A stretch of DNA of 64,000 nt from a virus. The notes under the pieces were generated by a model. The model saw only the letters and a list, made by a program, of their open reading frames with translations, made no database searches and was not told the DNA's origin. Shown here piece after piece: positions 2,445 to 45,563 of this stretch (within the stretch, counting starts at the first letter, position 1; each line of letters starts with the position of its first letter). Both the position numbers and the translations under genes were made by a program. The stretch covers positions 1 to 64,000 of the IMG/VR virus record IMGVR_UViG_3300020704_000001, one strand, 5' to 3'.

Positions 2445-2634
2445 TAAAAATTGGCTTTGTATTATTATGTTTGGACTATTAATTGATAGTTGTACATACA
2501 GATTAGCACCAGATACAACTGTTAAATGTAAACCAGATGTACATTTAAATAAAGATTTAAACTTATTAAATTCTGATGGTACAGCAAATTTAGATACAGC
2601 ACATATCATGCCAGGATTTAACTGTATATTTTAG
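2434..2634 (+). CDS. Small lipoprotein-like protein, possible outer-membrane spanin
   Basis: This 66-residue product begins inside the end of the holin-like gene. Residues 5-19 form a short hydrophobic signal (NWLCIIMFGLLIDS) that ends at Cys20, giving a lipobox-like LIDSC. The aspartate at -2 makes the box atypical. The remaining 46 residues are polar. Small lipoproteins beside holins are often o-spanins, which tether to the outer membrane and help disrupt it at lysis. No partner i-spanin is visible. The function is inferred from position and signal only. Confidence 0.45.
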   Translation: MDFNKNWLCIIMFGLLIDSCTYRLAPDTTVKCKPDVHLNKDLNLLNSDGTANLDTAHIMPGFNCIF

Positions 2635-2696
2635 AAAATATATATTATGAGTAATTTGGAAGGAAACAAAATCCCAATTCTAGATTGAAAGGGAAA

Positions 2697-2843
2697 ATGG
2701 AAAGAGACAGGACTGTAGACTTTAAAAGGATGTTAAAAGAAAGTAAGAGAAAACAATATTCAAAGAAAAATAAATCACAAAATGGAATTAATATAGATTT
2801 TGATCACGAAATATTATCTTTTATTAGGTCTTTATTTAAATGA
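2697..2843 (+). CDS. Small basic protein of unknown function (48 aa)
   Basis: This short frame starts at an ATG preceded by AAAGGG at good spacing and ends just before the terminator at 2848. The product begins MERDRTVDFKRMLKESKRKQ and is rich in Lys and Arg in its first 30 residues, with a hydrophobic end (ILSFIRSLFK). It is co-oriented with the two lysis-like genes upstream. I do not recognise the family. Support comes from the ribosome binding site, its position and the fit to the terminator. Confidence 0.45.
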   Translation: MERDRTVDFKRMLKESKRKQYSKKNKSQNGINIDFDHEILSFIRSLFK

Positions 2844-2847
2844 TAGA

Positions 2848-2877
2848 AGGGGAGCATAAAACTCCCCTCTTTTTTTA
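2848..2877 (+). terminator. Rho-independent terminator
   Basis: A 7-bp stem AGGGGAG/CTCCCCT with a seven-base loop is followed by C and a run of eight T. It ends the short plus-strand unit and sits exactly where the minus-strand block converges. Confidence 0.85.
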
Positions 2878-3033
2878 CTTAGAATTTAGATTATTAATTC
2901 TACGTTGAATTTTATCTTTATCTTTCGGTCTTGAAGATTTATCTCGAAGTTCAGATAATTGTGTTAATGTTAAAGGTTTTAATTTAATTCTATCATTTCT
3001 TGTTCTTAAAGGGTTTCTTTTTCTAATTGCCAT
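2875..3033 (-). CDS. Conserved small basic phage protein (52 aa)
   Basis: The product starts MAIRKRNPLRTRNDRIKLK and contains LTQLSELRDKSSRPKDKDKI, a pattern that resembles small hypothetical proteins of T4-like cyanophages. It is strongly basic and may bind nucleic acid, although that is inference. The ATG at 3033 is preferred because GGAG lies just upstream, overlapping the stop of the previous gene (GGAGTAATAATATG). An upstream in-frame extension would have an unlikely composition. It is the last gene of the minus-strand early block. Confidence 0.55.
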   Translation of the reverse strand: MAIRKRNPLRTRNDRIKLKPLTLTQLSELRDKSSRPKDKDKIQRRINNLNSK

Positions 3034-3037
3034 ATTA

Positions 3038-8745: not shown

Positions 8746-9174
8746 TTAACCTAACAATCCAGGGAAAATTTCTTTAACTAATTCTTCAGTCAAACCTTCA
8801 ATTTGTAAATCTTTTTGCATCATATTGAACCAAATTTGAGCTTCTTTAGGTTCAAATGATTCAAGTAGTTGAAGTAATAGATTATGTCTTTTCTTTTCTG
8901 TTAAAGAATCAGCTGTTGGATCACCTTTAAGAAACAGATAAACTTTTCTTATTTCTGATTCAATTCCAGCAATTCTAATTCCAGGAAATGTATCTGGTTT
9001 AATATAATCATCAGGAAAAGATTCTTCAACATAGAATTGATATTTTGGATCAAATGTATATTTTAGAACTTCTTTGAAGTAAGTAAATTGATTAGAAATT
9101 AGAACTTGTTTCTTTTCTTCAATTGTAGGAGCAGATTCAAATTTAGTTAAAATCTCATAAATATTAGGAGTCAT
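8746..9174 (-). CDS. DUF6433-like phage protein (142 aa)
   Basis: The pattern is an N-terminal helix (YEILTKFESAPTIEEKKQVL), a centre with LKYTFDPKYQFYVEESFPDD, then LTEKKRHNLLLQLLESFEPKEA and an end in GLTEELVKEIFPGLLG. It resembles a conserved family of T4-like cyanophages annotated as DUF6433, usually found among replication genes. The biochemical role is unknown. It heads a five-gene unit under the promoter at 9237-9265. Confidence 0.6.
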   Translation of the reverse strand: MTPNIYEILTKFESAPTIEEKKQVLISNQFTYFKEVLKYTFDPKYQFYVEESFPDDYIKPDTFPGIRIAGIESEIRKVYLFLKGDPTADSLTEKKRHNLLLQLLESFEPKEAQIWFNMMQKDLQIEGLTEELVKEIFPGLLG

Positions 9175-9236: not shown

Positions 9237-9265
9237 AGTATATATTAATTTTAATTTTTTGTCAA
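9237..9265 (-). promoter_or_regulatory. Early sigma70-type promoter
   Basis: On the minus strand TTGACA (9265-9260) and TATACT (9242-9237) are separated by 17 bases. It drives the small-gene unit beginning at 9174. Confidence 0.78.
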
Positions 9266-9285: not shown

Positions 9286-9367
9286 GAGCGAAGCGAGGAT
9301 TTACGAAGTAAATCAAATTAGCAACAAAACTGTTCCTACGCTTCGCTCGGAACCTCTCGCTTCGCTC
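9286..9367. repeat. GAGCGAAGCGAG inverted repeat enclosing two hairpins
   Basis: GAGCGAAGCGAG at 9286-9297 is an exact inverted copy of CTCGCTTCGCTC at 9356-9367 (12 bp). Between them lie a 7-bp hairpin GATTTAC/GTAAATC (9298-9314) and a 5-bp hairpin GTTCC/GGAAC (9332-9353), whose loop carries a third copy of the motif (CGCTTCGCTC, 9339-9348). Folded, this gives a three-way-junction shape. Its GC content is far above that of the surroundings. Confidence 0.75.
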
Positions 9368-9828
9368 GATCTTTTCTTTCTTCTTCTAAATTTTAGATAC
9401 AAAATCACTCTTCCCCGTTGATTAAGAACTATTATTAAATAATTCAGGTTTCTTAGAAACTGTTCCAGGGGGTGCTGAAGCAAAAACATGACTCCATAAT
9501 TATTATAGAGTAAAATTTGAACAATATGAATTAGACCTGCTAACTGTATCGACCACAATTGCTCATTGGCCGTCTGTCTTGCATGGATTGCTCCGCGACA
9601 GAAGTTTAGGGTATTAGATACATCATTAATACAACAACGATATCACATCAGGTTATATAAAATATCATAAAATAGTGTCATCACGACAGGGTTTATGATC
9701 TCTAATTCCAAGGGTACGATTTTTATGCTGGCCTTGATTATCTCAGCTCTCGATCCTCAATGGGAACAGAGGAAGGTTTCTGTTCTTGATTCCATTTATA
9801 GTGATGGAAACCACTTTAAAATCTATTT
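9286..9828 (-). ncRNA. Candidate structured noncoding RNA of about 500 nt
   Basis: This gene-free stretch lies directly downstream of a minus-strand promoter (9835-9862) and ends before the next promoter. Read on the minus strand it forms a row of compact hairpins: TTCCAT/ATGGAA (near 9802), GAACAG/CTGTTC (about 9764-9785), an 8-bp AUCAUAAA/UUUAUGAU stem (9664-9699) capped by UGUC/GACA, GUAUUA/UAAUAC (9611-9632), UCUGUC/GACAGA (9573-9602), GGCCA/UGGUC (9551-9571), GUUUC/GAAAC (near 9455) and the junction at 9286-9367. Its composition is less AT-rich than that of its neighbours. No frame is cleanly open. Large phage RNAs such as GOLLD and ROOL are possible relatives, but I cannot assign a family. 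A decayed gene is the alternative. The 3' end is uncertain. Confidence 0.5.
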
Positions 9829-9834
9829 AGTATA

Positions 9835-9862
9835 ATTATATCTTGTATATCTAAAAAGTCAA
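9835..9862 (-). promoter_or_regulatory. Early sigma70-type promoter directed into the gene-free segment
   Basis: On the minus strand TTGACT (9862-9857), preceded by TGC, and TATAAT (9840-9835) are separated by 16 bases. No intact gene follows, so its product is probably the structured RNA candidate. Start would be near 9828. Confidence 0.72.
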
Positions 9863-10056
9863 GCACTTTTTTGTATTTTTTCTAAATATTTTTTCTGATT
9901 TTTCATAATACGTTGATTATCCATCTTTTTTAGTTCAAGATATGCTGGCATATTTTCTGTATACCAAGATTTTTTAATATAATCCCATTTCAATCCAAAT
10001 TTTTCTGCTTTTTTTCTTTGATTTTTTGTTACTGCGTATTTCAAATAAGTTCTCAT
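9859..10056 (-). CDS. Small DUF5710-like protein (65 aa)
   Basis: The product contains RTYLKYAVTKNQRKKAEKFG followed by LKWDYIKKSWYTEN. This matches the DUF5710 pattern, in which a short beta-strand is followed by 'KDEAKALGARWD...KKWYVP'. Such domains often sit in primases and phage accessory proteins. Here the domain stands alone with a basic C-terminal tail. The ATG at 10056 is preferred over a TTG four codons upstream. Its stop overlaps the -35 box of the promoter at 9835-9862. Confidence 0.55.
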   Translation of the reverse strand: MRTYLKYAVTKNQRKKAEKFGLKWDYIKKSWYTENMPAYLELKKMDNQRIMKNQKKYLEKIQKSA

Positions 10057-10142
10057 AATAAATCTCAATAATTTTGTTAAATATAAGTAAAGGTGAACCC
10101 TTTGTTATTATATATTAAATTATTTTTAGGAGAAATATTGTT

Positions 10143-10487
10143 ATGATTAAAATTAGGTCAAAAGAAAGAGATGGTAGTGAAGTTTTAGTGAATGTGAATG
10201 CTATTAATTACATTGTTCCCTCATTAGACGGTGGTAGTGTGATACATTTTCAAACATCGTTTTTGGTTGCTCTAAATTCTATAGAAGAAATTGAATCAAA
10301 AATTAAGATATCAAGAACACACATTCAAGAATTATCTCCACAATCAACATTACTAACGGAATCAATAACTTTAGATACAGAATCAGTACTTTCTGATGGA
10401 TATCCTGAGCATCTTCCGAGACTTCCAACTGGTAATGTTGATAAACGTACAAACGCATATAAAGATTATATTGCTAGTAAAGGTTGA
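10143..10487 (+). CDS. Hypothetical protein (114 aa)
   Basis: The first 60 residues look like a small beta domain (IRSKERDGSEVLVNVNAIN, VIHFQTSFLVALNSIEEI). The rest is Ser/Thr-rich and probably flexible. TAGGAG lies upstream of the ATG. It is the first gene of a plus-strand unit with the FmdB-like gene and phoH. No family is recognised. Confidence 0.6.
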   Translation: MIKIRSKERDGSEVLVNVNAINYIVPSLDGGSVIHFQTSFLVALNSIEEIESKIKISRTHIQELSPQSTLLTESITLDTESVLSDGYPEHLPRLPTGNVDKRTNAYKDYIASKG

Positions 10488-44188: not shown

Positions 44189-44313
44189 GCGAAGAAATAA
44201 AAGGCAGTAATATATATCGTTATGCATGTTACACAAAACTTGCTGGAATTACTCCCAGTACAGGAGAGGTAATGGACGAATCAGGTTGTAGTATAAAGGA
44301 AACATATAAATGA
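44185..44313 (+). CDS. Truncated paralogue of the Cys-motif gene at 46838 (42 aa)
   Basis: The product contains YRYACYTKLAGITPSTGEVM and DESGCS, which match the middle of the 46838 product (RCVWYTKLAGTNPNTGEVMDEYGCA). The N-terminal CPLGAKC motif and the whole C-terminal helix are missing. It has ATGA overlaps with both neighbours, so it may still be translated as part of the chain of coupled genes. It is a degenerate copy from an older duplication. Confidence 0.6.
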   Translation: MSEEIKGSNIYRYACYTKLAGITPSTGEVMDESGCSIKETYK

Positions 44314-45563
44314 CGACAGAAGTAGATGCATCAGTCTTAGCACCAACTGCTGTTACCATAGGAACTTATGGTGGCACAGATAGTATCCCATCGTTTACTG
44401 TCGATGCTCAGGGGAGATTAACTTTTGCAGGAAATAATACACCGAGTATACCAACTAGTCAAATTACAGGAACTCTCGGTGTTGCATCTGGCGGTACTGG
44501 TGTTACTACTTCTACTGGCTCTGGAAGTATTGTATTAAGTACAAGTCCAACTCTTGTGACACCAATTTTAGGGACTCCGCAATCTGGAAACTTATCAAAT
44601 TGTACGTTCCCAACACTTAATCAAAATACTACTGGTACTGCTGCAGGTTTAAGTGCTACATTAGCAGTCGCTTCAGGAGGTACTGGTGTTACCACTTCTA
44701 CTGGCTCTGGAAGTATTGTATTAAGTATAAGTCCAACTCTTGTGACACCAATTTTAGGGACTCCGCAATCTGGAAACTTATCAAATTGTACGTTCCCAAC
44801 ACTTAATCAAAATACTACTGGTTCATCAGCATCTGTGACGGGAACTGTTGCCGTAGGTAACGGTGGAACTGGGTCAACAACATTGACCGTTAATAACGTG
44901 CTACTAGGTAACGGCACATCAGCATTACAAGCGGTCGCCCCAAGTACATCGGGCAACGTATTAACATCAAATGGGACAACATGGCAATCAATCGCGCCAA
45001 GTGGTGGCGGTTTCACCAGTATGGTCGTCTTCACAGCATCAGGTACATGGACTATTCCTGCTGGCATTACTAAGGCGAAAGTGACTATCCAAGGGGCTGG
45101 CGGTGGTGGTGCTTCTTCTATCTCTACTTGTCAAATGGCTGGTAATGGCGGTGGCGGCGGTGCGACTATAAAATATGTAACTGGATTGACTCCAACTGGA
45201 ACTGTTGCTTGTACGATTGGCGCTGGTGGCGCTGGTGCCATTAGTGGTGCTACTAATGGTGGTGCGGGCGGGACTACATCTTTTGGCGCTTATTGCTCTG
45301 TAACTGGCGGAGGAGGCGGGGCTTCGTCAGGCATACTTGATCCAGTTTATTTCCAATTCCCGATAGGGTCAGGAGGCGCAGGAACAGGCGGGAATTGGAA
45401 CCTTACTGGATCAAGTATGCCTGGTTATTTCTACACTTACACACCGCCCTCTTTAAACTATATTTCTAGTGGCACTAATCCACTCGGTAGCGGTGGCGCG
45501 GGCAACTATTCAATTGGTACCGGTACTGCTGGAATGTCAGGTTTTATCATGATTGAATATTAA
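44310..45563 (+). CDS. Tail fiber/adhesin with duplicated module and glycine-rich tip (417 aa)
   Basis: The N-terminal 40 residues (ASVLAPTAVTIGTYGGTDSI, PSFTVDAQGRLTFAG) match the start of the 43040 fiber. Two copies of a 48-residue module (GGTGVTTSTGSGSIVLSxSP ... FPTLNQNTTG) follow. The C-terminal 170 residues carry poly-glycine loops (GAGGGGASS, GNGGGGGAT, GAGGAGAISG, TGGGGGASSG), as in gp38-type adhesins of T-even phages, where such loops set host range. It probably competes with or replaces the HxH-type tip as a receptor-binding end. Confidence 0.75.
   Translation: MTTEVDASVLAPTAVTIGTYGGTDSIPSFTVDAQGRLTFAGNNTPSIPTSQITGTLGVASGGTGVTTSTGSGSIVLSTSPTLVTPILGTPQSGNLSNCTFPTLNQNTTGTAAGLSATLAVASGGTGVTTSTGSGSIVLSISPTLVTPILGTPQSGNLSNCTFPTLNQNTTGSSASVTGTVAVGNGGTGSTTLTVNNVLLGNGTSALQAVAPSTSGNVLTSNGTTWQSIAPSGGGFTSMVVFTASGTWTIPAGITKAKVTIQGAGGGGASSISTCQMAGNGGGGGATIKYVTGLTPTGTVACTIGAGGAGAISGATNGGAGGTTSFGAYCSVTGGGGGASSGILDPVYFQFPIGSGGAGTGGNWNLTGSSMPGYFYTYTPPSLNYISSGTNPLGSGGAGNYSIGTGTAGMSGFIMIEY
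44493..44822. repeat. Internal tandem duplication in the adhesin gene (144 bp copies, 186 bp period)
   Basis: Copies at 44493-44636 and 44679-44822 are nearly identical and in frame (48 codons, period 62 codons). Shorter parts of the same sequence occur in the fiber genes at about 43223-43309 and 42099-42205. Confidence 0.85.

Follow-up and report, generated by a model that had tools for sequence, protein, structure and literature searches.

The DNA analysed here, referred to as the window, comprises bases 1-64,000 of the 80,620-base record of a lake virus. Its gene content includes a phage DNA topoisomerase II pair, PhoH, an exonuclease and an endolysin, which are likewise found in T4-like phages. 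At the locus under study, the minus strand carries a small DUF5710-like gene, a promoter, a gene-free segment and a group of palindromic GAGCGAAGCG hairpins, and further downstream a DUF6433 gene with a separate promoter (Table 1). The small gene, whose likely start is the ATG at 10056, gave a weak match to its Pfam family (E 3.4e-4, under the curated cut-off). An alignment search for relatives of the small gene returned the same virus only, and the DUF5710 domain had a single match among the relatives, in an unrelated larger protein. Another gap of 428 bases, with no ORF of at least 60 aa, is located at 2610-3037 of the window.

Table 1. Features of the locus and the RNA of the second cassette (window positions unless stated otherwise).
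Feature	Position	Strand	Remarks
Conserved flanking gene beyond the ~870-base stretch	10143-10487	+	Homologue L020:407-775
Small DUF5710-like gene, first half of the cassette	9859-10068	-	Weak Pfam PF18974 match
Promoter TTGACT-16-TATAAT	9835-9862	-	11/12 match; small gene upstream has its TGA stop in the -35 box
Gene-free segment, proposed noncoding RNA body	9375-9828	-	No coding signal; G-U stem excess; counterpart at the second locus
GAGCGAAGCG palindromic hairpins, proposed 3' end/terminator region	9286-9370	-	Fold z about -5
Separate promoter of the DUF6433 gene, TTGACA-17-TATACT	9237-9265	-	Similar TTGACA...TATACT at the same place in L020
DUF6433/phrog_461 gene, downstream	8746-9174	-	Family matches; adjoins the 10143 gene in L020
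Second-locus RNA	Record 65,833-66,247 (L127:1833-2247), outside the window	-	Covarying family member

Coding signal, promoter and folding of the segment

An initial annotation of this DNA had described about 540 bases without an intact gene at 9286-9828. Codon scores agreed with this description: all six frames, with 4-18 stops each, scored negative, between -0.12 and -0.40 bits per codon, compared with a 5th percentile of +0.28 bits per codon for the true coding pieces of this genome. The same annotation had named a decayed gene as the alternative, pointing to a minus-strand frame with few stops. That frame was confirmed, with just 4 stops, and an open frame of 81 codons is present at 9313-9558. 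The 4-stop frame scored -0.39 bits per codon, however, the 81-codon frame matches no database family, and no intact gene turned up in any relative; we therefore consider the remnant of a decayed gene highly unlikely, the codon scores in particular speaking against it. The segment was also correctly described as less AT-rich than its surroundings, with a G+C content of 35-37% (35.1%) vs ∼14% in the immediate flanks and 31% in the genome. Elsewhere in the window, G+C rises to 51.6% (genome 31%) at 45001-45500, within or at the end of ORF 44310-45563, and fold energies there are low on both strands.

The promoter that had been reported to point into the gene-free bases is present, on the minus strand. 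Its TGCTTGAC context was found at further spacer sites of the record, including 4376(-), 12210(+), 66325(-) and 71930(+), and at each of these four sites it is followed by a -10-like box. A few additional GCTTGAC words in the record are not of this promoter kind. The recurrence of the context and -10-like box at other spacers suggests that TTGACT-16-TATAAT is probably one of this phage's regular promoters, from which an RNA start at about 9828 would follow.

The chain of hairpins described for this strand held up in part. The named stems exist, among them the 8-bp stem AUCAUAAA/UUUAUGAU at 9699-9692/9671-9664 with UGUC/GACA nested inside, but Watson-Crick stems are barely above chance: those of at least 5 bp numbered 19 vs 13.2 in shuffles (6% of shuffles), and one 8-bp stem is expected in ∼22% of shuffles. 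When G-U pairs were allowed, stems were in excess on the promoter's strand (93 vs 70 in shuffles, z 2.84), compared with a z of -0.63 on the opposite strand and a maximum of 2.49 in 60 random window pieces; this is a modest strand-specific signal, and several other statistics had been tried before it. Folding of 9375-9830 gave an ordinary energy (z -1.47). For the whole stretch the fold z reached -3.0, largely due to the GAGCGAAGCG palindromes, which fold far better than shuffles. These palindromes could end the transcript, and no clear U-run follows the hairpins at 9286-9370. We concluded that the hairpins alone are weak evidence for a structured RNA. Fold energy is a poor detector here, because the RNA of the second locus, described below, itself fails the test (fold z -0.31); its G-U stem z was about -0.3.

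A second cassette and its RNA family

The record contains six copies of the GAGCGAAGCG sequence, three at 9286-9370 and three at 65,600-65,795, and no other cluster is present. The second cluster closes a cassette of the same order, namely a DUF5710-like small gene, a promoter over its stop, a gene-free segment and the GAGCGAAGCG hairpins. The small genes of the two cassettes are related (E 6e-6), both have GCT TGA as their last codons, the stop lying within the -35 box, and the promoter junctions are identical at 25 of 29 positions. The next gene past the second cassette is convergent (L127:80-1474, plus strand), so the second-locus RNA cannot be its leader. The part of the record covered by L127 also holds the GCGAGCGCAGCGAAGCAGGAGCGAAGCG hairpin unit in tandem duplicate (L127:1697-1866, ∼85 bp; single in L199) and five clustered tRNA genes (Asn, Ser, Pro, Ser, Met; L127:8620-9160).

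One 17-mer of the second-locus RNA had matches in 56 viral contig stretches, ranging from fragments to contigs of 354 kb. The aligned members of this family, called the sister family below, represent an RNA of ∼375 nt with 15 helices, one of them a pseudoknot, and 85 pairs. Covariation was assessed on 27 diverse sequences. Paired cells amounted to 94.9%, vs 78.9% in shuffles and 37-43% in slid structures, a control that somewhat favours the structure, itself derived from the same alignment, to an extent far exceeded by the effect size and the double-sided changes. Compensatory changes on both sides were found in 51 of the 85 pairs, the covariation score was 0.468 vs 0.183, and the five-pair pseudoknot helix showed variation at every pair. 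We concluded that the second-locus RNA is a real structured RNA family with strong covariation.

The sister family is apparently undescribed. Rfam 15 gave nothing relevant for the second locus and the family members at gathering or relaxed thresholds, and the conserved word of the family was absent from the literature searched; an earlier description may exist elsewhere. No member was found in 50,697 phage records, which yielded unrelated short matches only (E 1-10), or in 48 other relatives and comparison records (0/48), many of them fragments. A search of 84,980 bacterial and archaeal genomes for the family motif produced six matches, all of motif length only and at most 20.9 bits.

Membership of the window segment in the sister family was tested with alignment A7 and two covariance models, R1 (the 3' core, including the GGGUAAGGUACAGAGCCC hairpin and the pseudoknot) and R2 (the 5' domain). 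The best R1 match near the segment reached 8.7 bits (E 0.16) and had no invariant hairpin, compared with 101.9 bits at the second locus; R2 gave at best 3.4 bits on the segment vs 117.3 bits. An nhmmer sequence profile found nothing on the segment and the second locus at E 5.9e-54. As far as membership is testable with these models, the segment does not appear to belong to the family. The two loci are alike in cassette layout, promoter junction, 3' hairpin motif, length class and G+C (35.1% in the segment, 35.4% in the sister RNA), but are without detectable homology in sequence or structure, and the segment could be either a too-diverged relative or a different RNA in the same type of cassette.

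Within the sister family, L172, L193, L195 and L177 form a diverged subfamily that scores 69-82 bits with R1; its members have a CACCUGAAA loop, and their 5' half differs. In L162, L178, L156 and L160 the genes flanking the family RNA differ from the DUF5710-like small gene, which is thus not a general partner of the RNA. ORFs of ∼690 aa adjoin the family RNA in two large phage contigs (L178:9091-11163, minus strand; L160:2025-4091, plus strand) and, judging by their sequence, read like a CHASE2-type adenylate cyclase. Another family-bearing contig carries a tmRNA gene (L174:2676-3154, minus strand), and its matches to the betaproteobacterial and permuted tmRNA models hint at the host group.

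Relatives of the segment and its place between genes

The entire segment is present in contig L002 with one base different, located in the loop of the UGUC/GACA hairpin, and an identical part of it is present in L003. Beyond such near-identical contigs, searches of viral contigs, phage records and plasmids revealed no homologue. When 2.9 million viral contigs were scanned four times with 16-17-mers, the remaining matches were all unrelated, and blastn against phages and plasmids gave just short AT-rich or promoter-like matches. In blastn comparisons with the complete records of 33 relatives and of 50 viruses that bear the sister family, the segment matched the same virus and otherwise by chance only, the two best chance matches lying in or beside coding sequence. 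Exact-word matches were rejected as relatives, the inspected ones being coding sequence or unrelated DNA. A 16-mer, CTCTGTTCCCRYTGAG, common to the segment, L158 and L163 had been spotted by eye and was judged a chance match.

The relative L020 (PhoH 70% and DUF6433 protein 65% identical) has both flanking genes adjacent, 123 bases apart, and about 870 bases with the small gene and the segment (∼9270 to ∼10135) are absent from the same place. These bases are therefore either extra in this virus or lost in L020. Imperfect direct repeats, 870 bases apart, flank the stretch. Their identity is just 77-89% and they are located upstream of two genes, so that sequence common to gene starts, and not an insertion, may account for them. 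DNA with no RNA role, either spacer or inserted, be it a small mobile or recombined element with palindromes or a replication or recombination site, would be consistent with the gap in L020, the flanking repeats and the segment's lack of homologues. We nevertheless regard such DNA as rather unlikely, given the good promoter, the strand specificity of the stem excess, the parallel to a verified RNA locus and the other possible origin of the repeats.

The position of the segment, ∼110 bases upstream of the DUF6433 gene and on the same strand, raises the alternative of a long 5' leader of that gene, i.e., an attenuator- or riboswitch-like cis element instead of a free RNA, and the lack of a clear U-run behind the hairpins points the same way. 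The DUF6433 gene has its own promoter, however, and L020 keeps the gene together with a similar promoter in the absence of the segment. The convergent gene downstream of the second-locus RNA also argues against a leader, and we consider this explanation improbable.

Proposed reading and comparison with known systems

In the reading that we favour and hold to be fairly likely, a phage noncoding RNA of ∼450-540 nt is transcribed from the segment; it would be a structured RNA of orphan type within one of two paralogous cassettes. The initial annotation had proposed a noncoding RNA as well; this is still the best reading by way of the second locus, but not by way of the hairpins, which hardly exceed chance, or of any Rfam family. 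The high expression that the annotation also proposed would be a conjecture from the good promoter match. The sequence itself supplies the 11/12 promoter match, the absence of a coding signal, a G+C content like that of the sister RNA, the G-U stem excess on the promoter strand only and, as the main argument, the second locus of this genome, which shares the layout and encodes an RNA family with conserved, strongly covarying structure. The lack of homologues and of a match to the sister family, the ordinary fold energy and the missing clear U-run weaken the case.

For the window RNA we infer transcription, its two ends, folding and any function as follows. Transcription would start near 9828 at a host-type promoter (sigma-70-like, presumably early) and end in or after the GAGCGAAGCG hairpins. 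The transcript would be noncoding and would fold as a structured RNA. The locus is one of two cassettes in the genome, each composed of a DUF5710-like small gene, a stop-overlapping promoter, a gene-free segment and GAGCGAAGCG hairpins. The folded RNA may act in trans during infection, perhaps with protein partners; a trans role is suggested by the second locus, which has no gene downstream that it could regulate in cis. That the DUF5710-like proteins bind these RNAs would be a guess. A wider and quite tentative reading is that of two paralogous protein-RNA cassettes in which a small DUF5710-like gene, via its stop-overlapping promoter, is coupled to an interchangeable large structured RNA, one RNA being of a widespread, pseudoknotted family new to Rfam and the other of a second, orphan class.

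Few large structured RNAs are known from phages, mostly without an assigned role. If the locus is real, a single phage would possess a pair of large RNAs that are unrelated but lie in matching cassettes. The RNA family of the second locus is the larger discovery, and a noncoding RNA at the window coordinates is probable rather than proven. The sister family is found in dozens of viral contigs, from freshwater and other sources, of up to 354 kb, and its covariation already suffices for a secondary-structure model including the pseudoknot, which makes structural work and partner searches possible.

GOLLD and ROOL are large structured noncoding RNAs known from phages, for which a cryo-EM study is available (PMC12286853). 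Membership of the segment in the GOLLD/ROOL class, as had been suggested, found no match at the Rfam 15 gathering score or in a relaxed scan, and the sister family is likewise without a match to these RNAs. No other Rfam 15 family matched the segment, including group I intron, 6S and tmRNA. Over the 64-kb window, Rfam 15 gave none at gathering score and chance matches only in the relaxed scan, and ARAGORN detected no tRNA or tmRNA. In HEARO/OMEGA systems an RNA lies beside a protein gene in one cassette, an arrangement shared by the cassette of the window. The neighbour in those systems is an HNH nuclease, whereas here, with no Rfam match for the RNA, it is a DUF5710-like protein of 65-69 aa.
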